This document shows, piece by piece, positions 124 to 22,845 of a stretch of 22,845 bases of DNA. Numbering within the stretch: the stretch's first letter is position 1; the number at the start of each line of letters is the position of its first letter. The stretch is from Candidatus Abyssobacteria bacterium SURF_5. Its GTDB lineage: Bacteria > Abyssobacteria > SURF-5. Position numbers and translations under genes: made by a program. The stretch spans positions 1-22,845 of the forward strand of contig QZKU01000071.1 in NCBI GenBank assembly GCA_003598085.1, given 5' to 3'. The notes under the pieces were generated by a model that saw only the letters and a list, made by a program, of their open reading frames with translations, did no database searches and was not told where the DNA came from.

Positions 124-152
124 TTGCAGTATTTACCACGATATGCTACACT
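124..152 (+). promoter_or_regulatory. Possible sigma70 promoter for the helicase-nuclease pair
   Basis: TTGCAG at 124-129 and TACACT at 147-152 are separated by 17 bp. The -10 is preceded by TG one base upstream (extended -10, TGCTACACT). The -35 matches consensus at 3 of 6 positions and the -10 at 4 of 6, so it is modest. Transcription would begin near 159, downstream of the ATG at 143 and upstream of the ATG at 185, which supports the latter as the true start. Confidence 0.35.
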
Positions 153-184
153 GCGGTCAACCGGTTTTTACGAGCAGGAGACTC

Positions 185-3100: not shown

Positions 3101-3352
3101 CGCGCCGAAGGCTTTGAGCCCGTCGAGCTTGTCTATTTCTGGGTGGCGCAAGCCAACGCGGCAGGCTTCTTCAAGAAATCATGCCTGCGAGTTGGCGATG
3201 GGAAAGATTCACTTTCTCCCGAGGAGATACAGATGGCTGAAGGCGCCGTCATCGAGGTCGTCAACCATATTTTGGCCGGTCGCTTCCCGGCCGAGCCGCG
3301 CTCGACGATAGAATGCCAATGGTGTTCTTTCGCGTCAATTTGCGATTCGTAA
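185..3352 (+). CDS. AdnAB-like helicase-nuclease subunit (UvrD motor + Fe-S PD-(D/E)XK nuclease), first gene
   Basis: Probable subunit of a RecBCD/AddAB-class machine that unwinds and trims double-strand DNA ends in the cytoplasm. From the ATG at 185 it is about 1055 residues. SF1A motifs are in order: Walker A GAPGTGKT (23-30), DEFEE at motif II (about 226-230), GDEMQRIYSFRG (253-264), NYR, TIHQAKGLQF (about 580) and YVALTRA. The C-terminal nuclease begins near 775 and shows ARIDRID, IIDYKT and QMPLYL. One Cys in SCPRRY plus three in the final CQWCSFASIC would ligate a 4Fe-4S cluster. Motif II is DEFEE rather than DEFQD, but the catalytic Asp-Glu pair is intact. The ATG at 143 gives 14 more residues but lacks a ribosome site, while 185 has AGGAG at 176-180. 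A stand-alone RecB-like helicase is the alternative. Confidence 0.85.
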   Translation: MYQHDAVQQRALSSEAETVIVRGAPGTGKTCLLFRRFHHLVSEKKIPASAIIFITFSSASAARCRRALQDDLGEPYAGFQIHTFHSIAMKIVSSCGWRGRLRTPLHFISPFKEYLVAREVLLSNRSSLAPIFKEVAEKDGFAWELSDFFKLLKQNLLFPAAFSTLTNRLSPELSDLARLYEAFEQYMREKNYAGFSDVIALATEILRNAPPSAQLDVDDFTHILIDEFEEIDPAQFELLRLLLKADTALFVAGDEMQRIYSFRGSGTGRFDLIKKLRPCFEEFHLDHNYRLPSAIAAAARLAGRNTEQREEPCGERTFQVVGHKDTVEQAYEIARDIKRTMLARVKNNALSYNDYNDFAVLCRSASRSTVPLKEAFSYYEIPAVVSNSTGFYMSPMVKSLSDLIKILVFPDDTAACMRVLNIPTLHIDPVELRRLVNILSEQSGGAALHESLRRYLADPERCHYRNREVLERVRNALDYIEGLREKIHSGESLVEVARLAARDLFIPAILEKSLDAGVQDARNLRLLDQLLQDIEEVGRHNNPEDSPARFLESLDHAFARFSNRQENVPPDDAAAGVRIMTIHQAKGLQFPYVYIVDATDEYFPAARRDNTLLDGKSLRLLREALRKRFDSTSFLSPHFPFQMSPKEHLDEERQVLYVALTRATEKLSVNYTEESHYSEPAEPSPFLHEMMPDEGVSDQKKSPVDSPVLSHLANAFSREEIESILHFHIQRSPEAAENEHVRSRLEACGLDGRYICDRQPFQVEPAEPPVLADHFFSASQLSSYLSCPRRYFYERALRIEPGRGKEFDVGRLIHIVLEKFHTKVKEYGSNSETLEAELLEIFNKVWLEKEAGEEAGGFHERFNTILQRETARRKAKQILSRYIKTEATQAPETQILACELDFTFQVRGVPFRARIDRIDALQNQGGHRIIDYKTSQTGPITPNAIKKKFLNIDRASDYAPQDFQMPLYLLAARAEGFEPVELVYFWVAQANAAGFFKKSCLRVGDGKDSLSPEEIQMAEGAVIEVVNHILAGRFPAEPRSTIECQWCSFASICDS

Positions 3353-3367
3353 ACAGGAGAGCCGACC

Positions 3368-6300
3368 GTGGACGTTTTCACGCCGAATCCGTCGCAACAG
3401 AAGGCCATAGAATTTCCGATGGAGCGGCCGCTGAAGATTATCGCTGGTGCGGGAACGGGAAAAACCGAAGTGCTCGCACGCCGCTTCGTTTATCTCGTCA
3501 AGCACTACAAGCTCCGCCCACACCATATTGTGGCTTTAACTTTCACAAAGAAGGCCGCCGCAGAAATGCGGCGCCGCATAGTTGCTTTACTCGGTGCAGA
3601 AGGTCTGGTTGACAGGAACGAGGCCGCTCTCTTGACCTGGATTGGGAATTTCCATTCGATAAGCCTCATTCTGTTGAAACAACATCCATTGCTCGTGGGG
3701 CTCGATCCCTCATTCGAGATTGTAGATGAGGTCGAACAGATTGCCCTCCTGCGAAATGTTCTGAATGATTTCCTCAATAATCGCCTTTCGGAAAGCAACG
3801 AGAACAGGTTTGAAGACCTGCTCATAGATTCCCCCGATAATCTGCAACAGGACATCCTCGCCATCATCAACCGACTGAAATCAAATTTCATTCATCCGCA
3901 AGATGTGAAGAAGCAACTCCTCCCCCTTTTAAAAAGGGAATATCGGAACCTCATAAGCGAGCTGAATGCGACGATAGACGATTCGAACACTCACGCCTCC
4001 ACAAAAAAAGCGTTCGAGAAACGCCTCGCGGCGATTCCTCTGGACGAGGCCTACGAACAATTATTCTTGAACGCCGTATACGTCATCTACAGAAGTTATC
4101 GCGAAAGGCTCGCGGATAAGAATCTCCTCGATTATAACGATCTTATTTTCTACGCTCATACGCTCATGAACAACAATCCAGATTTACGGAAGAATTTCGA
4201 GTATATCCTGGTTGATGAATTTCAGGATACCGACAGCGGCCAATATCGCCTTCTCGAGACAATGAGCAGAAGATTTCAGAACGTGACGGTCGTCGGCGAC
4301 CCCAAACAGTTGATCTACGAGTGGCGTGAGGCAAAACTGGAGAACATGAATAAATTCCCCGGCGAGACCGTGCCGCTCGAGGAAAATTATCGGTCGTTCG
4401 GACAGGTTCTCGATGTCGCAAACAGATTCATCCGAAACACCATGCCCGGCGAGCCTCCTTTACGAACGGCTTCGCAGGGCGGGCGCGGAAATGCGGGAGA
4501 AGCTCGTGTTAATTTGGTTTACACAAAGGACCGCGAAACCGAGGCGGTCTTCGTCGCGCGGCAGATCAAAGGCTTGATCGAACGGGGACGTTGTCCTGGC
4601 GAGATCGCCGTGCTCATGCGAACTATCCATTCTTCTCGCGCCGTCGAGGAAGCTCTCTCGGCGAGCGGTATTCCCTATGTAACCGTTGGAGGGTGCGGTT
4701 TTTATGATTTGCAGGATATAAAGGATATCTCCGCACTTCTCCGACTGGTAGGCAATCCCTTCGACGATCAACCAATGGTGAGAATGCTGCAAACCGAGAT
4801 GATCGGATTGAGTGATGCCTCCCTGTATCATATCTGCAGACAAAGAGAAGGCGAGATCACCAGCATCTATGACGCCATTAAGCAGGGCGATTTGAGCGGA
4901 TTTCGTCCAGCCTCGGCGGACCGGATGCGACAGCTTGTGCGACTTGTAGAGGAACTCGCTGCGCTCAGGTGGTCGATATCACTGGCGGAACTCTTCTCAA
5001 GAGCTCTCAAGGGCATCAACTACTTGAAATACCTTTCTTCAAGGGAGCGACCGCGCGGCCCGCGCTTCATGAATGTCGCTCAATTTTATAAGATTGCATC
5101 GCAATATGAGGAGCGCCATCCGAGAGACGGACTCGATGAGTTCCTGCTCTATCTCGAGACTGCCGCTTCGTGTGACCTGAAGGCCCAGCCGGGCAACGCA
5201 GCCGCCGAAAAAGTGCAACTCATGACGATCCATCAGGCCAAGGGCCTGGAATTTCCGATCGTTTTCCTGGTCGGCGTCACCCCGACTGGATTTCGCGGCG
5301 GCAACTTTGGGTATGATGAGGATTTTGGCATTTATGTGAAAAGGCGCCCGGATGGCACTTTCATTGTAAGATATGAAGGCGGCTACGGACGGATCGAAAG
5401 ACAACTGCGCGAGAGACGGTATCTGGAAGAAAACCGAATCATCTATGTGGCGCTGACACGCACTCGCGATCTCCTGTACATCACTGCATATGGCCCCCGG
5501 AAAGAAGAAGAAAAGGACTTCTTCTCCACACTTCAAGCATTCGCCTCGAACATGAAGCACTGCATTACGGCAAGCGTTCTGGAAGACGCCGCAGACGAGG
5601 AGGACACCGCAGCGCCAGCGGAGGTGTCGCATGCCGCCGGCGCGAATATTGATCTTCCTCTCGAGCAAGTACTGGACGCGACGGCGACGGCCGTCGAACG
5701 AATTGTTCCTGTCAGCCCAGCCGCTGCACCCGCCGCACCGCCTGTTCCCGAATTCAGCTACTCAAAGCTGGCTCTCTTCCGCCGATGTCCCCGCCACTAT
5801 GCATTCCGCTACGTCTACGGATTCGCGACAACAGATGAATTTGATTTTGACGGCAATTTCGGCGATGGCGCCGGCCGATTGCTCGGCGACTTATTGCACC
5901 AGACTCTGATGTATTATCACCGCGGGATGAAGCGAAAACAAAAGATGAACGCGCACAAGATTCTGGACGATTTGGGCCCCGCGCTTGACTGTCCCCGGCA
6001 AGTCCTTAATCGCGGACACGAGTTTCTTCAAAAATATCTGGATTCGCACTTGAGCAAGAAGGAGACTGTGTTCGAGGAAAAGGAATTCAATTGGAAGATC
6101 GTCGCCGAAGGGTTCACGTTCATCGTGAAAGGCACGGTGGACCACGTTCAACGCGAAGGCGATTCCCTCAAGATCATTGATTACAAGAGCGGCTTGAAAA
6201 AACCTGATGATCACAGACTCCAGCTAGCCCTGTACAAGATGGCGCTGGAAGAAATCCTTGGGGTCACCGGCATGCTGACAAGCAACTTTTATCTTTCAAG

Positions 6301-6457
6301 CGGGGAAGAGGTAACGCATCATTTTTCCCATGATGAGCTTGCCGATGTGCGAAGCCGGCTTCTCGTTGATGCTCGGGAGATAGTTATGGCGAATTATTCC
6401 AGAAGCAACGAGCCGGAGAAATGCGGGATCTGCGAATTCAAGAGTCTCTGCCGCTAG
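3368..6457 (+). CDS. AdnAB-like helicase-nuclease subunit (UvrD motor + Fe-S PD-(D/E)XK nuclease), second gene
   Basis: Second subunit of the putative end-resection heterodimer, 1029 residues, GTG start. AGGAGA at 3355-3360 lies seven bases upstream of the start and 15 bp separate it from the preceding stop, so the two genes are probably one operon. All SF1A motifs look active: Walker A AGAGTGKT (26-33), TFTKKAAAEM, DEFQD (about 283), GDPKQLIYEWR, NYRS, TIHQAKGLEF (about 620) and YVALTRT (about 693). An alanine/proline-rich linker near 770-795 leads to the nuclease domain with GTVDHV, IIDYKSG (about 936) and QLALYK. Its cluster cysteines are in RRCPRHY and CGICEFKSLC. Two adjacent proteins that each carry a motor and a nuclease fit AdnA/AdnB better than AddAB, where AddB lacks the complete motor motif set, or RecBCD. 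I cannot say which gene is AdnA. Confidence 0.87.
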   Translation: MDVFTPNPSQQKAIEFPMERPLKIIAGAGTGKTEVLARRFVYLVKHYKLRPHHIVALTFTKKAAAEMRRRIVALLGAEGLVDRNEAALLTWIGNFHSISLILLKQHPLLVGLDPSFEIVDEVEQIALLRNVLNDFLNNRLSESNENRFEDLLIDSPDNLQQDILAIINRLKSNFIHPQDVKKQLLPLLKREYRNLISELNATIDDSNTHASTKKAFEKRLAAIPLDEAYEQLFLNAVYVIYRSYRERLADKNLLDYNDLIFYAHTLMNNNPDLRKNFEYILVDEFQDTDSGQYRLLETMSRRFQNVTVVGDPKQLIYEWREAKLENMNKFPGETVPLEENYRSFGQVLDVANRFIRNTMPGEPPLRTASQGGRGNAGEARVNLVYTKDRETEAVFVARQIKGLIERGRCPGEIAVLMRTIHSSRAVEEALSASGIPYVTVGGCGFYDLQDIKDISALLRLVGNPFDDQPMVRMLQTEMIGLSDASLYHICRQREGEITSIYDAIKQGDLSGFRPASADRMRQLVRLVEELAALRWSISLAELFSRALKGINYLKYLSSRERPRGPRFMNVAQFYKIASQYEERHPRDGLDEFLLYLETAASCDLKAQPGNAAAEKVQLMTIHQAKGLEFPIVFLVGVTPTGFRGGNFGYDEDFGIYVKRRPDGTFIVRYEGGYGRIERQLRERRYLEENRIIYVALTRTRDLLYITAYGPRKEEEKDFFSTLQAFASNMKHCITASVLEDAADEEDTAAPAEVSHAAGANIDLPLEQVLDATATAVERIVPVSPAAAPAAPPVPEFSYSKLALFRRCPRHYAFRYVYGFATTDEFDFDGNFGDGAGRLLGDLLHQTLMYYHRGMKRKQKMNAHKILDDLGPALDCPRQVLNRGHEFLQKYLDSHLSKKETVFEEKEFNWKIVAEGFTFIVKGTVDHVQREGDSLKIIDYKSGLKKPDDHRLQLALYKMALEEILGVTGMLTSNFYLSSGEEVTHHFSHDELADVRSRLLVDAREIVMANYSRSNEPEKCGICEFKSLCR

Positions 6458-6890: not shown

Positions 6891-7208
6891 TTATCCCGCT
6901 TCTCTCCTTGACAAGTCCGGGATGCTCACCTGGCGCACGACAGCCGCCTCTGTCTCCTTTTTCCTGTGCCCGCTGGCTCCGATCGCCGTCCGGATAACGA
7001 TGACCAGCAACACAGAGACAAGCAGGTATAGAAATGTTGCTCCTATTATGCTCCGCTGTATGGCGAGGGCAAACGGTATCTTGTTTAAGCTCCAGGAGAG
7101 CGGCAGCATCACCATGAACCAAAGAACAGCCGCCGCTGACGCAGCCGCATCGACGGAATCATATCGGATATAATACGCGCGAAGCTTTTTTCTTCTTCCC
7201 CGTGTCAC
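6891..7208 (-). CDS. Small two-helix membrane protein of unknown function
   Basis: I do not recognise the family. From the GTG at 7208 it is 105 residues. It has a very basic N-terminus (TRGRRKKLR), two hydrophobic helices at about 22-46 and 52-75, and a charged C-terminal tail of about 30 residues. By the positive-inside rule the N-terminus is probably cytoplasmic. The GTG overlaps the stop of the upstream FecR-domain gene as GTGA, a classic translational-coupling arrangement. An ATG at 7232 would add eight residues and a longer overlap, and is less likely. It lies 3 bp upstream of the zinc-ribbon gene in the same operon. Confidence 0.65.
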   Translation of the reverse strand: MTRGRRKKLRAYYIRYDSVDAAASAAAVLWFMVMLPLSWSLNKIPFALAIQRSIIGATFLYLLVSVLLVIVIRTAIGASGHRKKETEAAVVRQVSIPDLSRREAG

Positions 7209-8467
7209 CGATAACTCTTGGTGTCTTCCCACCGGCGGGCATCTTCTTCGGTAATGATTTTTCTGCGATCATCCCTAGTGCCGGGCTTCTTATCGTAGCC
7301 GAACGTGGTTATCTCGGCCATGGTATTGCCGTACGGATCACGCGACAGAACATACTGATACGGCTCGCCGTAATGATCAACCAAATTTTGCGGGTCAGTA
7401 TATGGGCCGTTCCATTGGGACAACCCCGTACTATGGGCAAGCGCCTTGAGTCCCTCTTCGGTAGTTGGGAACCTCGCAAAATCGAGATAAAACATTTTCA
7501 GGGCCTTATCCAGTTGAAAGAAATCTTCTGAAGCCTTTTCCCAACCTGCTTGTATCGCATCATAAACGCGTTGCCTCTGCGCCTCTGGCAGAGCCGGTTC
7601 AACTTCAATTTGCTCGACCTCGCCTATACCGGCCAGTGCGGTAATCGCCTGAAAGTACTCGGATTGTTTCGTCCATTCCTCGACCAGAAGGACAATGTGC
7701 TGTAGCAGCTCCGTGGCGGTCAATTTGGCGGGTTCCGATCCGGCTGTCACCTTCAATGCCTGTTTGTTGGCGATCAAAACTTCAGGCGCCTCCATTCCCT
7801 TTGAGCTGACTGCAACCTCGCCTGATATCACCGAAACACTCGTGCTCTGCGTTTCAGGCTCAGCCTCTATCCGGAAAACCGTGCCGCGCACACCGGTAAC
7901 TGCGGCTGGCGTCTCTATTATGAAACTGGAATCCTTTGTTTTCAGCCGGCCGACCTCCGACCATAATTTCCCCTTCGACAAATCAACCTGCACTTGCGTT
8001 GATTTCGTCTCCGGGTTTACTTCCAACGACTTGAGAGTATACGTCGTGTTACCTCCAATCCCGCTGATGGCAAGATTCTCCAGAGTAACCACTACTTCGG
8101 CTCCCGGGGAAGTCTGGATCTGGTCTCCCGGGTTGACGATCATATTTTTGCCGGCGGGAACTAATCGCGTAGTGCCTGCCTTCTTAATGTCGGCTTTTCC
8201 CTTGATGTCTTCGATTCTGCCCTTGCCCGGGACGGTCCCATGAGGATCGACGCGCCCCTTATCGACGTTATAAATTATGCGCCCGCCGCCCGGCAGCTCT
8301 GTCCCGATCTTGTAGCTCTTTTCGCCTTCATCCATGATTTTCCCGGGAATTCGCTTGCCGGCGGGCGTTTCAACCGCAGCGGCATGAATGGGTGAAGTGT
8401 AGATAGTGGCAGCCGCAAATGCTGCAACAAGAACAGCACCTGCACGAAGATGGGTGGAGGTTCTCAT
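7205..8467 (-). CDS. Secreted FecR-domain protein with a C-terminal GspG-like domain
   Basis: A 420-residue exported protein of unusual build. Residues 1-31 look like a Sec signal peptide. Residues about 32-75 resemble short 'GKI...Y.I.T...GG' beta segments. Residues about 85-222 form a FecR-type domain (VNPGDQIQTSPGAEVVV, FIIETPAAVTGVRGTVFRIE, VISGEVAVS). A linker follows. Residues about 312-411 match the globular end of type II secretion major pseudopilins: FYLDFARFPTTEEGLKAL, WNGPY, PYQYV, DPYGN and a final GYDKKPGTRDD segment in the position of the GspG calcium loop. The prepilin N-terminal helix is absent, so it cannot be an ordinary pseudopilin. ATG 8494 is an alternative start adding nine residues; neither start has a strong ribosome site. 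It lies 51 bp (24 bp if 8494) after the glycerate kinase gene. Role unknown. Confidence 0.75.
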   Translation of the reverse strand: MRTSTHLRAGAVLVAAFAAATIYTSPIHAAAVETPAGKRIPGKIMDEGEKSYKIGTELPGGGRIIYNVDKGRVDPHGTVPGKGRIEDIKGKADIKKAGTTRLVPAGKNMIVNPGDQIQTSPGAEVVVTLENLAISGIGGNTTYTLKSLEVNPETKSTQVQVDLSKGKLWSEVGRLKTKDSSFIIETPAAVTGVRGTVFRIEAEPETQSTSVSVISGEVAVSSKGMEAPEVLIANKQALKVTAGSEPAKLTATELLQHIVLLVEEWTKQSEYFQAITALAGIGEVEQIEVEPALPEAQRQRVYDAIQAGWEKASEDFFQLDKALKMFYLDFARFPTTEEGLKALAHSTGLSQWNGPYTDPQNLVDHYGEPYQYVLSRDPYGNTMAEITTFGYDKKPGTRDDRRKIITEEDARRWEDTKSYR

Positions 8468-8518
8468 TTTTCGCCCCGCTGCCAGATTTTGCATTCTCTA
8501 CAGTATACGCTCCGAAAC

Positions 8519-12473: not shown

Positions 12474-12968
12474 TTATTCAACAATCAGATGGTTAATTCT
12501 GCAATTTCCCGCCTCTAAACTAACGAGGCTGCCGGGATGAATAATGCCGCCCGTGTTGCTGAAGAGGATGAAATACACCCGCTTCGCGTCGGGGTTGAAG
12601 TTCGTCTGGCGGAGCGGCCCGACTTTAGCCATGCGCGGAACGGTAAGCCTGTCGCCCGATGCTTCGTCGACAAGATAAGCAGGATTCTGTCGATCGAAGA
12701 TATCTGAGGCCTTCTCCGGATCCAGGACGCGATACCGAAAATCGATCAGGTGATTTTCCGCGGTCAGTCTGACGCTCACCACTTCGATCCCGAACTCCTG
12801 ATCTTGTGCCTGCTCGGCAAGGACGGGTTCGTCTTTCACGGCCAAATTTGCGCTGGGGCAATAGTTCCTTCTTGCATCACACGGGGCCGGTTTTGCGCTG
12901 GCGCAGCCGAAGCATACTATCATCAAAAGAATCGGCAGCAGCTTAGAATAGATTCTTTGATAATTCAT
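12474..12968 (-). CDS. Probable lipoprotein of unknown function, linked to the copper-oxidase cluster
   Basis: A 164-residue exported protein from the ATG at 12968. It has a hydrophobic signal segment (about 9-21) and Cys22 in CFGCAS as the likely lipidated residue; the lipobox is imperfect because -3 is Cys instead of Leu. The mature part looks like one beta-sandwich: EVVSVRLTAENHLIDFRYRVLDPEKA, YLVDEASGDRLTVPRM, KVGPLRQT, VYFILFSNTGGIIHPGS. I recall similar proteins in delta-type genomes near membrane or metal-related genes, but no function. Cys30, Cys37 and a late Cys could form disulfides. ATG 12986 adds six residues but has no ribosome site, whereas 12968 has GGAG upstream at a long distance. 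It follows cupredoxin gene C after a hairpin, so it may be the fifth gene of that cluster. Confidence 0.7.
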   Translation of the reverse strand: MNYQRIYSKLLPILLMIVCFGCASAKPAPCDARRNYCPSANLAVKDEPVLAEQAQDQEFGIEVVSVRLTAENHLIDFRYRVLDPEKASDIFDRQNPAYLVDEASGDRLTVPRMAKVGPLRQTNFNPDAKRVYFILFSNTGGIIHPGSLVSLEAGNCRINHLIVE

Positions 12969-12988
12969 GACAACATAATACTCCATCC

Positions 12989-13058: not shown

Positions 13059-14612
13059 TTACGGTAAATAGGTGACCTCAAGCACCGGTCGATTTGCCGG
13101 AACGGCATTTTCTCCCGAGAAAAAGCCGATTGCATCCGTCGTCCCATCATCATTGTCGTCGACTGCAAAATATACTTTCAGTTGCGTAAGCCCGATTTTG
13201 TTGATGGCCGCAAGGCCCGCAGCATTGAGCAAACCTTCGGATGCAGCACCATTGACTGCTGGATTACTCATAACCGCGACCTGCGCAGCTGTCGCTGCGG
13301 CCTGAAAGTCGCTCGGAGCAAGAGCCGGATTCCCGCCAAACGATCCGGTGACTATATCCACATAACAGGGGGCATGAGTCGTAAATGGGTTTATACCTGC
13401 AACGCCACCACGTATGAGTCGGAGCGTCGCCGCTTGTATTGTCGCGCCGTCGGGGAGACTTGAGGTATCGAAGGAGACGATCGATTTCAGTTGCGGCTCG
13501 ACCAGAAGAGCGGAAACGAATTGATCTCCAATCCTCAATGCGCTCGCATTTGCAATGGTTGCATCGGCAAATTGTCCCACATCGGCCTGGGTGAGAGATT
13601 CTCCCAGCCACCCGTCTTGAGCGCCTGCCGAGACGAATGTGACCGTCACGGGGGTGACCCCGCTTGCGTTTATGTAGGTCAGCATGCCGCCCACACCCGT
13701 TGCTCCAGCATTAGTCAAATTGAGGCGCCGGTCAAATAGCGCGTATTGGCTCGGCGAAGAAGGAATGACTATTGCATCAGACGTTTTCCCGGCATGGAGC
13801 GGGATGGCAACGGCGTCCACCGGGAACGGCAAGAGATTCCCGTCCTCTGCGATGACGTTTGCGCGCAGCCCATTTATCATCGGCTCATATGATTTCAGGC
13901 CGGCGTTCGCCATGCGCAAAAGGACTCTCTCACCGGTTGCGGCCGCAATCGCCTCGGTGTCCGGATACGCCTTCCCATTGATGAGGAAATACTGCGGCCG
14001 ATAGTCCACCGTGCTCGGATATGCGGCGGTTCCATAGGTGCCGTTTTGTACGGCCGCGTGGAGGAGTGGATCGATGTCGCTGAACACCAGGACCTCCTCC
14101 TGGTCATATGCGGAGACAGGATCGTTGTAAGCTTGTCCGGCAGTCGCGGGCCGAACTATAAGCACGCCGTACAGCCCCATCTGCACTTGTTTCGCCGGAT
14201 GGGTGCCGCTCTCATAGAGGTATGTTCCGGCCTTGAGGTCCGGAAAAGTGAAGCTGGCGGTTTCCGGCACGAACGACATTACCCGACCATCCACCATTAC
14301 CGGCGTCGGCGATGTGATTCGCTGGCCGTGAATAATGATGGTGACCGCTTCGGGCAGGTTGTTCGTTAGATTGATTGTGAGGTCATCGCCCTCGTTTGCC
14401 TCGAGGACGGGGCCCGGAACTCCGATCGTTCCGCTGCCCGTCAGCCCAAACCCCCACATCAGGATAGGGGCGCCGTCTGGCATGTTAATGGTGACATCAT
14501 CGGCGGTAAGATCATAACTCACCGGCGCCGCATGGGAGGTCGCGGCCATGACCAACGAAATGACCATGGCCGAGAAGAGGACCAAAAAGTCTGTCAGTCT
14601 TATCTTTCGCAT
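13059..14612 (-). CDS. Secreted cupredoxin protein C: copper-ligand-free multicopper oxidase paralogue with DNRLRE/CBM96-like domain
   Basis: 517 residues. Signal peptide 1-29 (cleavage near SHA-AP). Two multicopper-oxidase cupredoxin domains follow at about 30-155 and 165-320. The scaffold is retained (GTYLY..., QMGLYGVLIVRP, INGKAYPD). Almost all copper ligands are gone. The HCH motif site reads ESG, its downstream His is Gln and the axial Met is Leu. Of the HWH pair only His95 remains, and the HPxHxH site in domain 2 reads KSYEPM. Residues about 340-517 form a DNRLRE/CBM96-like module (ADATI, SIVSFDTSSLPDGATIQAATLRLI, final RPVLEVTYLP) with a calcium-type loop DDNDDGTTD near 485. Start ATG 14612 has AGGAG seven bases away, 13 bp after gene B. 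Likely a structural partner of A and B rather than an enzyme. Confidence 0.8.
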   Translation of the reverse strand: MRKIRLTDFLVLFSAMVISLVMAATSHAAPVSYDLTADDVTINMPDGAPILMWGFGLTGSGTIGVPGPVLEANEGDDLTINLTNNLPEAVTIIIHGQRITSPTPVMVDGRVMSFVPETASFTFPDLKAGTYLYESGTHPAKQVQMGLYGVLIVRPATAGQAYNDPVSAYDQEEVLVFSDIDPLLHAAVQNGTYGTAAYPSTVDYRPQYFLINGKAYPDTEAIAAATGERVLLRMANAGLKSYEPMINGLRANVIAEDGNLLPFPVDAVAIPLHAGKTSDAIVIPSSPSQYALFDRRLNLTNAGATGVGGMLTYINASGVTPVTVTFVSAGAQDGWLGESLTQADVGQFADATIANASALRIGDQFVSALLVEPQLKSIVSFDTSSLPDGATIQAATLRLIRGGVAGINPFTTHAPCYVDIVTGSFGGNPALAPSDFQAAATAAQVAVMSNPAVNGAASEGLLNAAGLAAINKIGLTQLKVYFAVDDNDDGTTDAIGFFSGENAVPANRPVLEVTYLP

Positions 14613-14625
14613 TGTCTTCTCCTAT

Positions 14626-15942
14626 CTATTCCATGGCCATCGAGCCGTGCGGCATGACCATCATCATGGTCATCATTCCACCGGGGAAAATGTCGTTGTT
14701 GACCATTTCCTTTTCTGTGTGTGAATGCCACATGAATGTGAAAGCCGCCATCGGATTCAATCCCCCTTGTCCCGGAGGAAGAGAACCCGAGTCTCCAAGG
14801 AACGGGCTGCCGCTCCACATCCCACCGAATGTCAGCTCCAGTTGAGCTGGTAATATGACGGGGAAAGACTTCCCGTGGTCCGCGCAATATTCGTACGTCA
14901 TATCATCGTACCCATCGCCGTCCATGTCCATGCAATCGTGTTCATAGCCCGGCCCTGTCCCGTAGATATCCCAGCCAAGCCCTCTTCCGGTCCATTGAAA
15001 GATGGCGTCGAAGGTGTTTCCGGGTGTCGACTGGATGGTAAAGAGATCATGGCTCAGGTCGGCGCCTGCACCGGGCACACTCGACAGCAGTCTCCCATCC
15101 TTTGCGATAATGCGAGCATGGTTGCCGTGATAATGGAACGGGTGCAGGTCGCGCCCGATGCCGATGACTCGCATGAGCATCTTCTCGCCCGGCATTATCA
15201 TGGGCATGCAATTGTAAGGCTGGGTGGGAAGCCACGGGACACCCGCGGGATACATTGTATCGGGAGCATTACGCCCGTTGATGAACCAATAGACGGGGAA
15301 GAAAGTGGTCGTGTCGATTGGCTCGCCGAATTCAACCATCTCCTGGTGGACAATATCCATCTCGCTCAGGAGAAAAAGAAATTCGCGGTCAAAGGCCGAA
15401 TCCTCATGGTTGTATGCGTGCTTGCCGTCATTGAATGGCGCGACGCTGGGCCGCACTATCAGCGCCCCAAACAGCCCCATCGGTATCTGTTTGTCCATAT
15501 TCGTGCCGCTTTGATAGCAATAGGTGCCCGGCTCCGTAACCTCGAAGGTATAGGAGACCGTGCCGCCCGGAAGCGCCTCGAGTGTCACGAGACCCGCCGC
15601 TGTCGGCGGAGTCACTTCAGTTGCGACGACATTCGCCTGTCCGGGGAAAATCATGGATACCGGCTCCGCCAGATCATTCGTGAGGTTTACTATCACGGTC
15701 TCACCCTGGTTCACAAAAACCGTAGGGCCGGGATATTGGGCTCGACCGTTTCCAGGGGCAAACCCCCAGATCTGTAATGTCAAGCCGTCTCCCAAAGTGA
15801 TGTAGTCGGCTTTCGCAGTACAATTCAATATGGGACCGTTGACTCCGGGAATCTCCGCCCAGCCGGGTGAAACAATGGACAGCAGCAGGGCTACTCCAAA
15901 CAGCAACGCCGGCCCATATCTCCTTATGCATACAGTGTTCAT
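14626..15942 (-). CDS. Secreted cupredoxin protein B: half multicopper oxidase supplying the domain-2 trinuclear histidines
   Basis: 438 residues from the ATG at 15942, chosen because AAGGAGG (15949-15955) precedes it at ideal spacing; ATG 15960 is the alternative. Signal peptide to about WAE (28-30). The domain 1 scaffold is kept but every copper ligand is replaced: the HTVHWHG site reads VSMIFPG and the HCH site reads QSG. Domain 2 keeps LHPFHYHG (His267, His270, His272) and a C-terminal WHSH (His406, His408), the four trinuclear-site histidines. The usual type 1 Cys between the last two is Ser407. A calcium-type loop DMDGDGYDD lies at about 339-347. The last 20 residues are very Met-rich. 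It is 17 bp from gene A and 13 bp from gene C. Alone it should not be a functional oxidase; with A it would complete one site. Confidence 0.82.
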   Translation of the reverse strand: MNTVCIRRYGPALLFGVALLLSIVSPGWAEIPGVNGPILNCTAKADYITLGDGLTLQIWGFAPGNGRAQYPGPTVFVNQGETVIVNLTNDLAEPVSMIFPGQANVVATEVTPPTAAGLVTLEALPGGTVSYTFEVTEPGTYCYQSGTNMDKQIPMGLFGALIVRPSVAPFNDGKHAYNHEDSAFDREFLFLLSEMDIVHQEMVEFGEPIDTTTFFPVYWFINGRNAPDTMYPAGVPWLPTQPYNCMPMIMPGEKMLMRVIGIGRDLHPFHYHGNHARIIAKDGRLLSSVPGAGADLSHDLFTIQSTPGNTFDAIFQWTGRGLGWDIYGTGPGYEHDCMDMDGDGYDDMTYEYCADHGKSFPVILPAQLELTFGGMWSGSPFLGDSGSLPPGQGGLNPMAAFTFMWHSHTEKEMVNNDIFPGGMMTMMMVMPHGSMAME

Positions 15943-15948
15943 CGATTT

Positions 15949-15955
15949 CCTCCTT
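15949..15955 (-). promoter_or_regulatory. Ribosome-binding site deciding the start of gene B
   Basis: AAGGAGG on the minus strand lies six bases before the ATG at 15942. It selects that start over the ATG at 15960, which overlaps the stop codon of gene A and has no such site. Confidence 0.8.
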
Positions 15956-15959
15956 CTCA

Positions 15960-17180
15960 TTACGGCGCGCTTGTCAGCCGGATTTCCGTCATGGCGCCGC
16001 CGCGATCCATTGCATCATTATTGAGATCATCCAGATTTCTCGAGTACAGGAAATATGTGCCGGGGGCCAGCCCATCGGTATCGAGAATGACGTCTATCGA
16101 CTCGCCTCCGCCGAGCGTGACAGAATTCGTGTAATACGACAGGTCGAGCCCGGTCGGACCTCTGAGAAGGCGCGCATTTTGCCCCACAACTCTCATTGGG
16201 ATACCCAGAGTGGTGATGGTATGGAACTTCGTTACGGAAAGGCTTGACATCCGCAGAAGGATCGTATCGCCTACCTGCGCCTCGATAAGGGAGGACACAT
16301 TCTGGCTGCCGGGATAGACTCCGCCTTCGGGATCCGTCCCATCGATCGGATTCGGATTCACTGTATCCGGATAGCCCCTTCCGTTGATCATGTGATAGTC
16401 GTCTTCCATCAGCGCGAACGGCAGCGGCTGAACATAATAACTGGCGTCGTGAAATTGCTTATCGAAGTCGATAAACTGAAGAACATAATCGACATCATAG
16501 CCTGTGGAGCCGTCACCATCGTTGTAGGCGAACTGGGTGAATCCTCCGATGGGCGCGCCGTCCTGCGCCGGCGTCACGTAGAGATTACCCAGCATGCCCA
16601 TCTGCATATGCTCGGTCGCCTCGACGTGGCAGTGATAGATATATGTTCCGGGTTCAGGCGCCACATAATAATAAGTCAACGTCGAACCCATGTTGATGCT
16701 GATCGAGGCGTCCGGCACGCCGTCAAACACGGCGGACGCATTCGGGAAACCGTGCCAATGCACGGTGTGCGGGTCGAACAGATCGGGGCGTACCATCATG
16801 CCGACATTTGTCAGATTGAGGTACACTTCATTGCCCTCCTTCACCGCAATCAGAGGGGCAGGGGAATTGGCGGCAAGCATGCCGTGCATCATCACCATGC
16901 CGGCAGGCATACCCGTGACATCGCCAAACCCGAACATGTATTGAGGGTAGCCGTCCGCCATCGTCGTAAAGCCATCCCCGCCGGTCAGGTGAATACATAC
17001 CACGTTGTCGTCCTGATAATCGACAACGCCGTCGGCGTCCAGGTCTTCGCCAGCCGCCTGCTCCGCCTCCCAATTATCGGTCGGGCATTGGATGAAAACG
17101 TCTGAGAGGGCGGGCCGGCTCCAGGAGAAGATAACCAGCACCGCCAGGCTCAGTACCAGGCTCGGAATCTTCTTTTTCAT
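15960..17180 (-). CDS. Secreted cupredoxin protein A: half multicopper oxidase with the type 1 copper and domain-1 trinuclear histidines
   Basis: 406 residues, signal peptide to about residue 26. A calcium-type loop (DLDADGVVD, 47-55) lies between Cys32 and Cys62, and a Met-rich stretch (GMPAGMVMMHGM, 90-101) follows. Domain 1 carries DPHTVHWHG (His138, His141, His143) and YHCHVEATEHMQMGM (His183, Cys184, His185, His191, Met196). By analogy with two-domain oxidases and NirK, His138, Cys184, His191 and Met196 bind type 1 copper, and His141, 143, 183 and 185 are trinuclear ligands. Domain 2 has lost its half-site: only His320 of the HPxHxH motif remains, and the C-terminal HxH position reads YSR. 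The start ATG has AGGAG at good spacing. It lies 70 bp after the beta-helix protein gene. A domain-2 partner (gene B) is needed for a trinuclear centre. Confidence 0.87.
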   Translation of the reverse strand: MKKKIPSLVLSLAVLVIFSWSRPALSDVFIQCPTDNWEAEQAAGEDLDADGVVDYQDDNVVCIHLTGGDGFTTMADGYPQYMFGFGDVTGMPAGMVMMHGMLAANSPAPLIAVKEGNEVYLNLTNVGMMVRPDLFDPHTVHWHGFPNASAVFDGVPDASISINMGSTLTYYYVAPEPGTYIYHCHVEATEHMQMGMLGNLYVTPAQDGAPIGGFTQFAYNDGDGSTGYDVDYVLQFIDFDKQFHDASYYVQPLPFALMEDDYHMINGRGYPDTVNPNPIDGTDPEGGVYPGSQNVSSLIEAQVGDTILLRMSSLSVTKFHTITTLGIPMRVVGQNARLLRGPTGLDLSYYTNSVTLGGGESIDVILDTDGLAPGTYFLYSRNLDDLNNDAMDRGGAMTEIRLTSAP

Positions 17181-17212: not shown

Positions 17213-17238
17213 CCGCCGCCGGATTGTGCCGGCGGCGG
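17213..17238 (-). promoter_or_regulatory. Intercistronic GC-rich hairpin between the beta-helix gene and gene A
   Basis: CCGCCGCCGG (17213-17222) and CCGGCGGCGG (17229-17238) pair perfectly over 10 bp around a six-base loop in the 70-bp gap. No T-run follows, so it is more likely an mRNA-stability or partial-attenuation element that sets the ratio of the large protein to A, B and C than a full terminator. Confidence 0.55.
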
Positions 17239-17250
17239 AGTCAATTTTCA

Positions 17251-20200
17251 TTACGGATAGAACTCGTCTGCTCCGAGATCGGGCAGAGCGCCGTTTGGAC
17301 GGTTTTGCCCGTCAAAATCACGCAGAAGAGCGGATGGAACTCCAGGACGAACTACTCCTCTGTTAATCGCAGGGGATCCTGCCGCAAGGTGATAGTCACC
17401 GAACGGTAAATTCGTAGCGGGATCGATCAACGTAAGCGGCCCGAACCGCACATCGATGAAGTTGCCGCCTTCATCAAAGGCGGGCGCCGCTTGAATCGTG
17501 GTCGTCTCTGGAATTATTATCTGGTTTTTTGCGCCGTTCACATACTCGCTCAGGAAATCAGGATCCGCGCTGATATTTGTGCCGCTGTAGCCGGTTGTAT
17601 CCGTCAACACGCAGTACAGCGGGTTGAGCGACTGCGGGGTCTCCGTTCCGACAACCGCGAGGTCGTCATAAGCGGGCGCCTGACCTGCGCCGACATCGGG
17701 CAAGAGCCGGTAGGGCGGTGTCAATGTGTCGTCGATCACAAAGTAGAAGGTGCGATTGTGCCAAATGATATTGCTTGCCAGCAACGGATTCGAGAACTCC
17801 TGCTCGAGTCCGGCTGGAAATGCAGCCTGGAGTTCAGGACTGTGCGCACGAGCTACAATGCCGGCGGGCTGCGGCGTTGACTGGTTTGGACTGCCCGGCT
17901 CAAAAGCCAGCCCCGCGGTCGCAGTACTGTCGTTGTTGGTCAGCGTATTGTGAATAATCTGGCAATTTGCCACATCCTGCAGCGAAATCGCGCCGCCTGC
18001 AAGTCCGGCGACGTTATTCACAATTATGTTGTTAAAGACCTGAATCTGATGCCACAAACTTGAATTTGGCGCCAGCGCAACGTCAAGACCGTTCGTACGG
18101 GCAAGACGAATTCCGCCGCCGTCTCCGGCGCCCGCCAGATTCCCCAGAATCAGGTTTCCGTTGATCGTGACGGAGCCGGTGCCGGTGCTCAGGCTGCCGG
18201 GCCCGCCGAGAGGAGACCCGCCCAATACGGCGATTCCTCCGCCGGATACGCTCAGGCCTTGGTTAAAGGATTGATTAAAGAGGATGCGGTTATTCTCAAT
18301 CAAACCGCCCTGGCTCAATCCCACATGAGCAATGCCGGCGCCTTCGCCCATTGTGAAGTTTCCACAAATAACATTGTCTGTTATGCGGTAGAACGGGCTG
18401 CCGGTCGAAATGAGGACTCCGCCGCCGGCTTCGCTCAGGCCGCCGTTTTGAGTTACGTGGTTATGATGGATGTTGAGGTTTCCGTTATGCGCCGGCTCGT
18501 ATATCTGCTCGGGCGTTACGGTCAGAGTCGGATGACCGGACCGTATCCCCCCGCAGTATACTCCTTGATTGTTTATGACGCGGTTGTTACTGACTTCGAG
18601 ATAGTGAGCGTAACCGTTGATCATTACGCCGCCGCCGACCACTGCGCCCCTGACCGTGAATCCGTCAATGCGGGCATTGGGATTGGGTCCGAAACCGCCT
18701 TCTTCAGGTGGGGCGTTTTTTGCGAACACGGCTATGCCGGCGCCTTCCTCTGTGAAGAGGGTATTCGGCAAGGCCGCTTGCGCGGGCAGCAGAGTGATAT
18801 CCCCAGCCGCAATCAGTGAATCCATCTTTTGCCGCCATGCTAGCAGTTTCTCGGCTGGCTCATGGATCGCGTTGATTATCGTCGAGTTTGCGCCCCAGCC
18901 TTGCAGCCGGACCGGTTTCCACATGATAACCATTTCTTCGTATGTTCCCGGACCGACTATGATCAAATCGCCGGGCGCCGCCGCGTCTATGGCTGCTTGT
19001 ATAGAACCTCCTGCGGAAACGGCTATGGGCGCCGATCCTCCAATTGTGACGGTAAGTCCGACAGGAGTGGACAGACCGTTGTCGCCTCGCGTGACCATTA
19101 ACTGGCCGCTCTGTGTTCCGGCGGGCACGGTCGCCCGTATATATTGGCCGTCGGCTCGCCAGCGGATGTTGGTAAGCGCAACGTCTCCGATTCTAACTTC
19201 GCCGGCGATGCTCCCGAAGCCATAATCGCGTATGATAGTCTTTGGATTCACCCCGCCCGGGCCGTCATATTGAGGATTCGGGACATCCTTTGGACCAACT
19301 GACTCAATAATGATATCGGCGGGCGTCGAGGCCAGGTAAGGCCCCTGACTGCTTAGATTCGATACCCGGTTGATTTGCGGAGTGCCGTCCGGAAATTCGC
19401 AATCGAGCGGGAATTGATCCGGCCCGGCAAAGGCCGCCACCGGAACAACCGGCGTATCAAGATACGTCGTTGCTCCGGGCATGTACTGGAACGTGTAGCA
19501 GAACTGGCTGTACTGCGGGTTGAAATGCGGGTCCGTAATAAACTGCCCGGGATTGTTGGGATCAGGAATCGGACCAGGATGATTCAAGCACACGGTTATC
19601 ATGCTGGGCGAGACCCCGCTCGGCGAAGCTATATTAACCGTATAGGTTGATGGAACCAATCCATTATAGGTACCCCACTCGTCCGAATAAACCCTTCCGA
19701 TTTCTCGCCCCGTCCAGTCTCGGATGGAAACCGGCATCCACGGGGGCGCGTATTTTTCACCGAATTGAGGCGAATTCGGATCGAATTCGTTCGCAGTGTC
19801 ATCGAGAATCATGCCCTTGAAGTGGGCTGCAATTGGCACCTCAGTGAACATGAAAAAATCAGCCGCCGTGTTTCTTCCTTCCGTAAGCGCGACCTGCTTG
19901 CGGTCACATGCAGGCCGATAGGTCCCCGCAAAAGGAGCTTCAATCCCCGGGAATAGCGTGAGTTCACCGGGAACGAGATGTCCGAGACCGCCATTTTCGT
20001 CATAGTTCACGCACACCGGCGGAAGCGCGAGCGGGACAGTGTATTCATCACCGAAGTCTACGTTCTTATCTTCTTCTTGCACGAGTTCGTAGCCCAGAGG
20101 CGGAACCGCTTCAACGATGTACATTCCGCTCGGAAGATATGACCCATCATCGAGCTGTGGGCCAAACGCGTAGCCGCCGTCAAAAACACCCGGACGCACC

Positions 20201-22203
20201 TGGTTGAAATTGCGCAGGCCGTCGTAGCAATCGGTCGGCTCCCCGTGGGCGTAAAAGATCTCGCCCTGGCATCCCGTGGGGATGTCATCGTCCCAGCTAT
20301 CAGTCGTTGTAAACAGTATAGCGTCGCCAAGATCAAAGACGCCGTCGTTTCCGCTACGCTCTTCATCTTCGGCGCCCATCGGGTCTCCGTTCGACCAGCC
20401 GAACGGATAATTGTCGACGTCGGCAAGCTGAATCCCGGCGACTCCATTGATATCATCGATTTGGCCGTCAATGATGCTGTCCTGGTACAGGTTCACCTGA
20501 ACACGCGGGATGCCCGGTTCCCAAGGCTCGCCTGCGCCGTAACGAGGATCGTTCTCGGCGCGGGTGGTCGCATAGTAAATAATGCCTGAAATGCCGCCGT
20601 TTTCACCCGGGCCGTAGTTCTTCTTACCCCACAGCATTACGCTGGTCTGGCCGAGGAATCCCTGAAATGCTTCGACCAGGGCCGGTCCGGTCTCGGTGCG
20701 GTAGGGGCCGCCGCCCGTCTCTGATTGCGGCTGCGGCGTCAATATCCCGCCAAATGACCATGGATCGAGCGGGTCGATCATTCCGCCGTCATCAACAACA
20801 ACGGTTACACCGGTTGCCTTGTACCGGAGGAAATCGACTTCGGCCACCAGCCAGTTGAAGAACGGAAAGACCTCGTCGAATGGAACGAATCCCTCCAAAT
20901 CGGTCGGAAACGATTGATACATTGTGCCGTCCCTCCAGCGGAGGTTAACGGCCTGTTCGGGCAAAGCGACTTCGGTGTCGTCCCAAAACCCGTCTTCGTC
21001 CTCATCGTAGAAGGTGTAATGCTGTAAGCCGGTGAACCAATTGAAAACGGGAACGTCCCCGAGCACCACGTCGCCGCCGCCCTCGGGAACGGTAACGCCG
21101 AGGCTCGCAATGAGCAGATCAAGATAATCATCCCATATGACAAGCTGATAATCGCCCGGTGGCACATCGGGAATTGAGAACGTGCCGTCCTCATTGCCTC
21201 GTGCTGCGTGAACGCCTACGCCCAATCCAACCGACAAATCATTCAAGCCGATCCAGGGCGTTGTGTGCGCAAAAGGCACGCCTGGGAAAAAGGTATAATC
21301 AGGCGGGCGCGAGTTATGGAGATTGACGACCCGCCCGCTTATGGTGCTGCTGCCGTCAAGGACAGTAGTGTCGTGCATCGGCCGAACGAATCCCACGAAT
21401 ACATGCCAGCCGGGGGGGCCGAACTCCCTGAAGTACGGCGGCTCGTTCGCCTTCACCCATGCATCAATAGTCTTTGTCCCCTCGATGGTCGATGTTTGCA
21501 CCCACTGCTCGCCCTCCGGCGGAATGATTTGAATTCCATATTTCCCCGGCGGAAGATATTTAATCAGCGCCTCGCCGTTCGCATCCGTTAATATCGTGCC
21601 GGTGCCCATCGAGATTACGTTGCCGTCAGCGTCATATTCGGTTCCGAGCATGTTGCCGAACGCGTCCAGCATGATACGGCCGCCGGAAATGCCGTAGCGG
21701 CCGCCCGCTTCCCCAACAATCACTTCGAAGCCTTCCAGTCCAAGTTCGCCGGGAGTGTCGGGTGCATTATTAATCGGTTGACTATCCTCAAAAACGAAAA
21801 TGCTGATTTGCGCCGTGGGAAGAGGCAGCTTGTTGACAGTGACCTCGACTGACGCGGCATCGCCCGCAAAACGAGCGCCGCCAATCGTGTAGCCGGCGTC
21901 GGGAAGAATGGACACATAATAGTACTTGGTCGCGTCGAGCGCGAGGGCCGGCGGGGTCGTCTCATCCCCGCTCTCGACAACCGGCATATAGCTGGTGTGG
22001 AATTTCACCGCCAGCGTATGCGGGTCGATCACGCCCGGAACCACATTGTATGTGGCATCCTCCTCGATCAGCCAGCGATATTCGCTCACCGCGAGTCCGT
22101 CCGACCCTGTCACGGTCAAATCGACGGCCAGCGCCGCCGAGGACGGGACGACAAGAAACAATATCGCCAGAACTATGAACTGCCACCATTGCCTTTTTCC
22201 CAT
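17251..22203 (-). CDS. Giant secreted protein: Cna-B/SdrD-like modules, IPT/TIG-like domain, right-handed beta-helix
   Basis: 1650 residues from the ATG at 22203, chosen because AGGAGG (22208-22213) precedes it and it starts the signal peptide cleanly (cleavage near ALA-VD); ATG 22227 is the alternative. Residues about 150-240 and 290-365 are Cna-B/carboxypeptidase-regulatory-like folds ending in PPGKYGIQIIP and PPGDYQLVIWD. SdrD-B-like modules follow near 395-450 (calcium loop DEDEDGFWDD), 550-740 and 815-860. An IPT/TIG-like domain is at about 965-1055. From GGSIQAAIDAAAPGDLIIVGPGTY (about 1060) to the end runs a pectate-lyase-type right-handed beta-helix, closing with PDLGADEFYP. There is no LPXTG or PEP-CTERM anchor. 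It probably acts outside the cell as an adhesin, scaffold or polysaccharide-binding partner. Position as first gene of the copper-oxidase operon suggests it presents or anchors A, B and C. No catalytic residues are recognised. Confidence 0.8.
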   Translation of the reverse strand: MGKRQWWQFIVLAILFLVVPSSAALAVDLTVTGSDGLAVSEYRWLIEEDATYNVVPGVIDPHTLAVKFHTSYMPVVESGDETTPPALALDATKYYYVSILPDAGYTIGGARFAGDAASVEVTVNKLPLPTAQISIFVFEDSQPINNAPDTPGELGLEGFEVIVGEAGGRYGISGGRIMLDAFGNMLGTEYDADGNVISMGTGTILTDANGEALIKYLPPGKYGIQIIPPEGEQWVQTSTIEGTKTIDAWVKANEPPYFREFGPPGWHVFVGFVRPMHDTTVLDGSSTISGRVVNLHNSRPPDYTFFPGVPFAHTTPWIGLNDLSVGLGVGVHAARGNEDGTFSIPDVPPGDYQLVIWDDYLDLLIASLGVTVPEGGGDVVLGDVPVFNWFTGLQHYTFYDEDEDGFWDDTEVALPEQAVNLRWRDGTMYQSFPTDLEGFVPFDEVFPFFNWLVAEVDFLRYKATGVTVVVDDGGMIDPLDPWSFGGILTPQPQSETGGGPYRTETGPALVEAFQGFLGQTSVMLWGKKNYGPGENGGISGIIYYATTRAENDPRYGAGEPWEPGIPRVQVNLYQDSIIDGQIDDINGVAGIQLADVDNYPFGWSNGDPMGAEDEERSGNDGVFDLGDAILFTTTDSWDDDIPTGCQGEIFYAHGEPTDCYDGLRNFNQVRPGVFDGGYAFGPQLDDGSYLPSGMYIVEAVPPLGYELVQEEDKNVDFGDEYTVPLALPPVCVNYDENGGLGHLVPGELTLFPGIEAPFAGTYRPACDRKQVALTEGRNTAADFFMFTEVPIAAHFKGMILDDTANEFDPNSPQFGEKYAPPWMPVSIRDWTGREIGRVYSDEWGTYNGLVPSTYTVNIASPSGVSPSMITVCLNHPGPIPDPNNPGQFITDPHFNPQYSQFCYTFQYMPGATTYLDTPVVPVAAFAGPDQFPLDCEFPDGTPQINRVSNLSSQGPYLASTPADIIIESVGPKDVPNPQYDGPGGVNPKTIIRDYGFGSIAGEVRIGDVALTNIRWRADGQYIRATVPAGTQSGQLMVTRGDNGLSTPVGLTVTIGGSAPIAVSAGGSIQAAIDAAAPGDLIIVGPGTYEEMVIMWKPVRLQGWGANSTIINAIHEPAEKLLAWRQKMDSLIAAGDITLLPAQAALPNTLFTEEGAGIAVFAKNAPPEEGGFGPNPNARIDGFTVRGAVVGGGVMINGYAHYLEVSNNRVINNQGVYCGGIRSGHPTLTVTPEQIYEPAHNGNLNIHHNHVTQNGGLSEAGGGVLISTGSPFYRITDNVICGNFTMGEGAGIAHVGLSQGGLIENNRILFNQSFNQGLSVSGGGIAVLGGSPLGGPGSLSTGTGSVTINGNLILGNLAGAGDGGGIRLARTNGLDVALAPNSSLWHQIQVFNNIIVNNVAGLAGGAISLQDVANCQIIHNTLTNNDSTATAGLAFEPGSPNQSTPQPAGIVARAHSPELQAAFPAGLEQEFSNPLLASNIIWHNRTFYFVIDDTLTPPYRLLPDVGAGQAPAYDDLAVVGTETPQSLNPLYCVLTDTTGYSGTNISADPDFLSEYVNGAKNQIIIPETTTIQAAPAFDEGGNFIDVRFGPLTLIDPATNLPFGDYHLAAGSPAINRGVVRPGVPSALLRDFDGQNRPNGALPDLGADEFYP

Positions 22204-22845
22204 GATTCCTCCTGCTCGTTTTCTCATTCAACTGCCCTTCCTTTCACCTCTTCTGTCCTTAGCAAAAGCATCCTGTATTTTCAACGCAGGCATCACATTG
22301 AACCTGCGCTTCTTTATCCGCAATACTTAAAGATTTGCAGAGCATTGAACATAATTGATGCTCCAAACGTGAAAGGCAATCCGTCAAATACCGCATCGCA
22401 TTTCGCCGACCCAATGCGTGGCTCGCATGCTTCTCCAAGCAATGTTAAAACATTCGTTTTTCAATTACCGCAACGTTGAAGAATGATGAGGTAGGAGCAT
22501 CCGCTTGAAATGCGGGCTTGATCCTCTGCGAAGTCTTTGCGAGATCCGCCGCTGACTTTCGTTCAGACTATCCCAAAATCTCAATGACCGCAGCCTGATC
22601 GATTCCGCTGTTCCACTGTAATCCGCTCGCACCTGCAGGGAAATGATCGCTTTCATTGACCGCCGCTGTTGGTTTCCTTGGTTAAATCACCGCAGAGTTA
22701 AACTAAATCTAACACGGTTTCCGGAATGCGCAAGACACAATAAAACTTTTTTGGGTCCTCATGAGAATTTGTGGGTGAGAAAAAGTCATAAATAATTGAA
22801 AAGCATGAACTAAATCCTGTATATCGAGTGTCTGAAGAGGATACT
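22204..22845. other. Gene-poor leader and intergenic region at the right end
   Basis: No convincing intact gene. The first 280 bp form the leader of the giant secreted protein. I see a 6-bp stem CGCAGG/CCTGCG (22285-22290, 22303-22308), a 6-2-6 inverted repeat AATGTTAAAACATT (22441-22454) and an imperfect hairpin at 22493-22525. No good sigma70 promoter was found for the operon. A 63-codon minus-strand reading frame at 22465-22656 may be a decayed transposase start. AT-rich sequence from about 22690 to the end probably holds control signals for a gene beyond the window. Confidence 0.5.
22441..22454. repeat. Operator-like inverted repeat AATGTTAAAACATT
   Basis: Two perfect 6-base arms around AA, about 240 bp upstream of the large secreted-protein gene. 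Size and symmetry fit a dimeric repressor site, but it is a single copy and unassigned. Confidence 0.3.

Follow-up and report, generated by a model that had tools for sequence, protein, structure and literature searches.

Two-domain multicopper oxidases of type C, of which 3G5W and 2ZWN are solved examples, are homotrimers with three complete sites, in which domain 1 holds the type 1 copper. The first of these (Multicopper oxidase type 1) is presumably the enzyme of Nitrosomonas europaea, and the second (two-domain type laccase) we take to be derived from a metagenome. To our knowledge, every chain of the known two-domain oxidases carries a full ligand set, though the trinuclear site is shared between chains. 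This inter-chain location is described for the type C family (PMC13151041). The subject of this article is a group of three adjacent genes, here called A, B and C, on a contig of Candidatus Abyssobacteria bacterium SURF_5 (assembly GCA_003598085.1, contig QZKU01000071.1); the whole stretch analyzed, 22,845 nucleotides, is referred to as the window. The type 1 and trinuclear ligand positions are those of 3G5W and 2ZWN, but one ligand set is distributed over two gene products, and the third paralogue is ligand-free. From their sequences, A and B are probably complementary halves of one multicopper oxidase, with C closing the ring and tethering what would be a surface-bound enzyme.

Two further comparisons are instructive. 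Ceruloplasmin and other six-domain oxidases have six cupredoxin domains, of which the first and last share the only trinuclear site. A ring of A, B and C would have the same number of domains and likewise one trinuclear site, whereas ceruloplasmin is one polypeptide with several type 1 sites and the present system is encoded by three genes. MnxEFG and MofA/OmpB are secreted multicopper oxidase systems that are linked to metals and include partner subunits, a likeness that extends to a MofC-like cytochrome and SCO1 as neighbors; MnxG presumably has its copper sites within one chain, unlike the division between A and B.

A gene cluster of this kind has already been published. Sideroxydans lithotrophicus ES-1 has three multicopper oxidase (MCO) genes in tandem (PMC5566968), and these belong to the cluster Slit_1812-1818 (He, 2017; Keffer, 2025, PMC12016527). 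In the later paper, two of the three proteins are termed canonical MCOs and the third is larger and has domains resembling adhesins and polysaccharide lyases; expression of Slit_1812-1818 is given as higher in late cultures on magnetite than in those on Fe(II)-citrate; and similar clusters are named in Paraburkholderia, Ralstonia, Anaeromyxobacter and Steroidobacteraceae (Keffer, 2025, PMC12016527). The Slit cluster comprises three cupredoxins, one of them without MCO motifs, with SCO1, a cytochrome and small proteins, and by gene content and named relatives it appears to be of the same kind as the present one. These papers neither describe half-sites for each protein nor propose a heteromer. 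A literature search that mostly did not extend to subscription journals found no proposal of a split, heteromeric or heterotrimeric multicopper oxidase site. The gene cluster is already known, and we have not found the split site described before.

The three genes and their copper motifs are as follows, with residues of B counted from its first methionine.

15960 to 17180, minus strand: A, a two-domain cupredoxin of 406 residues with an intact domain 1 (type 1 copper and half of a trinuclear site) and a dead domain 2
16752 to 16769, minus strand: HTVHWH of A, residues 138-143; H138 for type 1, H141 and H143 for the trinuclear site
16593 to 16634, minus strand: HCHVEATEHMQMGM of A, residues 183-196; H183 and H185 for the trinuclear site, C184, H191 and M196 for type 1
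14626 to 15960, minus strand: B, a two-domain cupredoxin of 444 residues from the first methionine, with a dead domain 1 and a trinuclear half-site in domain 2
15478 to 15516, minus strand: YQSGTNMDKQIPM of B, residues 149-161; the former HCH...M motif of domain 1, ligand-free
15127 to 15144, minus strand: HPFHYH of B, residues 273-278; H276 and H278, trinuclear ligands
14719 to 14727, minus strand: HSH of B, residues 412-414; H412 and H414, trinuclear ligands
13059 to 14612, minus strand: C, a two-domain cupredoxin of 517 residues without ligands and with a DNRLRE-like C-terminal part

An earlier note on this DNA had described three adjacent two-domain cupredoxin reading frames with a divided active site, and its account of the sequences holds. 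Each of the three proteins scores above the Pfam cut-off for Cu-oxidase_3, and two cupredoxin domains are recognized in each, from sequence only. The 21 residues running from GTY to the glycine after the axial position form a gapless alignment of A, B and C (GTYIYHCHVEATEHMQMGMLG, GTYCYQSGTNMDKQIPMGLFG and GTYLYESGTHPAKQVQMGLYG, respectively), and the cysteine of A is replaced by serine in both B and C, as that note had it. All the ligands it listed for A and B are present; its numbers for B (270, 272, 406 and 408) count from the second methionine and correspond to H276, H278, H412 and H414 here. The second methionine, at the head of ATGAACACT, is directly preceded by AGGAGG, and for this reason a start at 15942, giving a protein of 438 residues, is more likely than the first methionine.

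The type 1 site (H138, C184, H191 and M196) is confined to domain 1 of A, with none in B or C. The eight trinuclear histidines are not found in one polypeptide: four are in domain 1 of A (H141, H143, H183 and H185), four in domain 2 of B, and none is conserved in C. Such an arrangement is by itself weak evidence, since loss of entire half-sites in three paralogues leaves one domain 1 half in one protein and one domain 2 half in another in 6 of the 15 ways to choose two half-sites. What makes the complementary split strong is the conservation of its ligands. In ten loci, with identities of approximately 45–59%, all eight ligands of A and the four histidines of B are invariant, as is H273 of B. 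Ligand histidines are invariant in 10 of 10 cases, compared to 2 of 20 for the other histidines of the three window proteins. In the ten-locus alignment C lacks conserved ligands throughout, as do domain 2 of A and domain 1 of B, and the former HCH site of B reads Y-[QYH]-S-G in every locus. The remaining H320 of A and H95 of C are not kept (their columns read HQQQYHSYYY and HVAVSVIPPP) and are lone chance leftovers. The ten loci amount to about seven separate lineages, L009 and L011 being near-copies and L032-L034 mutually close.

The ligands can be placed on known structures. In a profile search of the PDB, 3G5W and 2ZWN were the best solved relatives of A and B, and in single-sequence searches they ranked first or second for each of A, B and C. 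By profile, domain 1 of A aligns to 3G5W with HTVHFH on HTIHWH and HCH...H..M on HCHVNVNEHVTM, and domain 2 of A aligns as well, with the ligands gone. Domain 2 of B aligns to domain 2 of 2ZWN, HPxHxH falling on HAMHSH and HSH on HDH. Because the trinuclear site in the type C family lies between chains, A and B together would supply the ligands of exactly one site of each kind, type 1 and trinuclear; with its own ligands alone, neither a homotrimer of A nor one of B could complete the trinuclear site. Single-chain AlphaFold2 models, for which the alignment consisted of the three window paralogues, had a predicted local distance difference test score (pLDDT) of 40.5 for A and 33.6 for B; they were uninformative and were not used for fold searches. 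Copper nitrite reductase was considered and rejected: a type 2 HC without a following histidine is expected in that enzyme, and A has HCH together with HxxHxH, as is typical of trinuclear sites. Along with CueO and CopA it was ruled out by the ligand pattern and by NCBIfam scores far below the cut-off.

Co-occurrence was surveyed in one order in depth, Burkholderiales, and in one even sample of the phylum. Paraburkholderia and Cupriavidus metallidurans have full-length relatives of A and B on megaplasmids, with C adjoining and the order kept. The earlier note had suggested asking whether A-like and B-like proteins occur together, and profiles of the two match the identical 6 of 399 Burkholderiales genomes; B was found in 1 of 398 genomes of the evenly drawn sample. 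The order and phylum of the window are represented in the genome collection by three genomes only. In a single scan of genome contigs no orthologue came up, the match being to a type B-like oxidase. In every locus read, A, B, C and a giant secreted protein are present, and A, B and C are adjacent in constant order.

A, B and C are each monophyletic (support 100/99, 93/99 and 100/99, respectively), and B and C are sister clades (95/92). The trees thus indicate that they are three old clades. Since each forms one clade, the triplication and the losses would predate the split between the lineage of the window and Burkholderiales, or the whole set was transferred. The same division of ligands is fixed in a second phylum, to judge from the Burkholderiales loci and the window, which indicates that it is more than local decay. 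As bacteria that are only distantly related retain precisely these halves, A and B very probably form one active site together. The proposal in the earlier note of one type 1 site and one trinuclear site common to A and B is thereby strongly supported, by the mapping on 2ZWN and 3G5W, the invariance in a second phylum and the co-occurrence.

A mechanism can be proposed. Of the eight trinuclear histidines, four would come from domain 1 of A, which would also bind the type 1 copper, and four from domain 2 of B. The trinuclear cluster would form at the contact of these two domains, as in homotrimeric two-domain oxidases with type 1 copper in domain 1. C, the ligand-free sister of B, would be the third subunit, closing the ring and anchoring the enzyme on the giant surface protein. 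The electrons that this secreted, surface-bound oxidase would pass to O2 would be taken up outside the cell, most likely from a reduced metal, for example Fe(II) in minerals. The division of the ligands and its conservation, the co-occurrence, the fusion of C to the giant protein (described below) and the neighboring genes are observed, whereas the assembly, stoichiometry, copper content, donor or substrate, and acceptor of the A-B-C system are what we infer; a heterotrimer of A, B and C with a single active interface would be the simplest assembly and is plausible.

Several observations weigh against this proposal. Three of the ten loci, L032-L034, are close kin and two, L009 and L011, are near-copies. 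The HSH stretch of B scores only 2.2 bits by itself against HDH of 2ZWN. Split pairs exist without a neighboring C (L053, L055 and L056, described below), so that a place for C in the ring is not forced. No heme-copper oxidase match was found in the host genome, which is 98.5% complete, and bd-oxidase gave a sub-threshold match only; O2 as acceptor is therefore uncertain in this host. The long multiheme cytochromes of the host genome, on contigs C6 and C64 (L047 and L048) and with many paired CXXCH matches, count instead in favor of the proposal.

The composite enzyme might instead oxidize organic compounds or copper(I) rather than metals in minerals, or might serve metal reduction, the role proposed for OmpB of Geobacter, and we regard the chance of this as considerable, if somewhat below even. 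Cupriavidus metallidurans is a metal-resistance strain, and the lack of a heme-copper oxidase match in the host of the window would be in keeping with these alternatives. They fit less well with Sideroxydans ES-1, where the similar cluster is raised on magnetite relative to Fe(II)-citrate, an observation that also favors the mechanism proposed above.

The genes on either side of A, B and C are as follows.

17251 to 22227, minus strand: a giant secreted protein of 1658 residues with SdrD_B, CarboxypepD_reg, right-handed beta-helix and choice-of-anchor Q matches
12474 to 12986, minus strand: a fifth gene adjoining C, for a secreted protein or lipoprotein of 170 residues

The order on the minus strand is giant gene, A, B, C and fifth gene. 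The separate-gene layout, giant-A-B-C, is seen in the window, L029, L032, L033 and L034. In the other five of the ten loci (L009, L010, L011, L030 and L031), A and B precede a single protein of approximately 2700 residues that joins C to the giant (C::giant), and L012 shows the same pattern of reading frames as these. The giant of the window is 43-44% identical to the fused proteins of L009 and L010 by MAFFT and 33% by BLASTP, and 54% identical to the giants of L032-L034 by BLASTP. L010 (NC_007974.2, 1332667-1354984), on the Cupriavidus metallidurans CH34 megaplasmid, is a complete system, yet no gene of it is listed in the plasmid collection. C proteins that are not fused have cadherin/Ig-like or DNRLRE tails. 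The fusion is direct evidence, at the level of the genes, for a joint function of C and the giant protein. By its domains the giant is a probable cell-surface scaffold, to which C, fused to it in half of the loci, likely tethers the oxidase; C is probably a structural subunit as well as a tether. Between the giant gene and A, at 17213-17238, there is an all-GC hairpin of 10 pairs, possibly an element of mRNA processing or attenuation.

The fifth gene stands beside C or C::giant in every uncut locus, with homologues in L010, L011, L029, L030, L032, L033 and L034. In L029 and L032-L034 the cluster adjoins genes for a subtilase, a c-type cytochrome and SCO1, a protein of copper delivery. The window holds A, B, C and the small gene without SCO1 or a cytochrome, and the SCO1 of the host genome is on another contig. 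A secretin and pseudopilins adjoin the cluster in L010, L029 and L030, the stretch of L029 that was read showing pseudopilins only. SCO1, the cytochrome and these type II secretion-like genes count in favor of the proposed mechanism and suit a secreted, copper-loaded oxidase that is bound to the surface and acts on an extracellular donor. Elsewhere in the window, 7205-8494 encodes a FecR domain joined to a T2SSG domain (type II secretion pseudopilin), an odd combination, and 143-6457 contains two large adjacent open reading frames (ORFs) of 1069 and 1029 residues that by eye look like UvrD/AddAB-type helicases.

A second kind of split site was also seen. A weak match to A in the family of genome G491 led to a divergent split pair, L053:8211-10168. 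Its two proteins are adjacent and shorter than A and B; a B-like protein with the domain 2 half only (HSLHFHGNH and MHVH) is followed by an A-like protein with the domain 1 half only (HTIHMHG and YHCHVHTVKHLEM). No third cupredoxin was found in the approximately 700 bases between this pair and the end of the contig. Further split pairs lie on two Indioceanicola profundi plasmids, one on each (L055:2602-4918 and L056:1152-3415), again with no neighboring third paralogue, and their B-like partner has HCH in domain 2 with no type 1 histidine after it. In the tree the domain 2 partners of all three pairs group together (99/96), apart from B and C, the deep branches being poorly supported. Active-site splitting may have arisen twice, and because these pairs lack a neighboring third paralogue, a split site can exist without C beside it.

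The composite site of A and B could thus belong to another assembly, C then acting apart from it as a portion of the giant surface protein; an A2B trimer, an A3B3 hexamer and a pseudo-four-domain dimer are examples. The divergent pairs and the five fused loci speak for such an arrangement. C is, however, itself a two-domain cupredoxin, sister to B and beside A and B at every A-B-C locus, and the known trimer fold calls for a third two-domain subunit; we consider the alternative assembly unlikely, if a genuine contender. The full set of proposals, namely an obligate heterotrimer of A, B and C with exactly one site, held on a giant surface scaffold, acting in solid-phase metal oxidation as a gene-split counterpart of ceruloplasmin, with splitting also arisen in a second lineage as two-gene pairs, is offered tentatively, as its chance of being right in every part falls well short of even. 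The interpretation in the earlier note, taken as a whole, is partly supported: the shared site of A and B stands, and the giant protein, its fusion with C, the fifth gene and the published cluster had been overlooked.

It is improbable that A is a lone blue-copper electron carrier with type 1 copper only, and that the four histidines of B bind a separate metal without any trinuclear site. The complex of A and B is a prediction, and electrons could pass between a type 1 copper and the neighboring c-type cytochrome. However, the four trinuclear histidines of A match its type 1 ligands in invariance and would be needless in a pure electron carrier; so would the four histidines of B, which lie at the domain 2 positions of 2ZWN. 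That B and C are decaying duplicates, complementary by coincidental loss, has a negligible probability and is already contradicted by conservation, for although half-site loss gives such a pattern fairly often, it is fixed in a second phylum, the four histidines of B are invariant at about 45% identity, stop codons are absent, and A and B are inherited together.

If A and B are halves of one oxidase, A, B or C expressed singly should be inactive, and the enzyme is therefore to be sought as a complex. Motif scans that label A-like and B-like proteins both as canonical MCOs would count one enzyme twice. A split site would explain the three uncharacterized cupredoxins raised during magnetite oxidation. 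A naturally split ligand set fixed in two phyla would, if true, be a living intermediate between the homotrimeric two-domain oxidases and the six-domain oxidases with one site.
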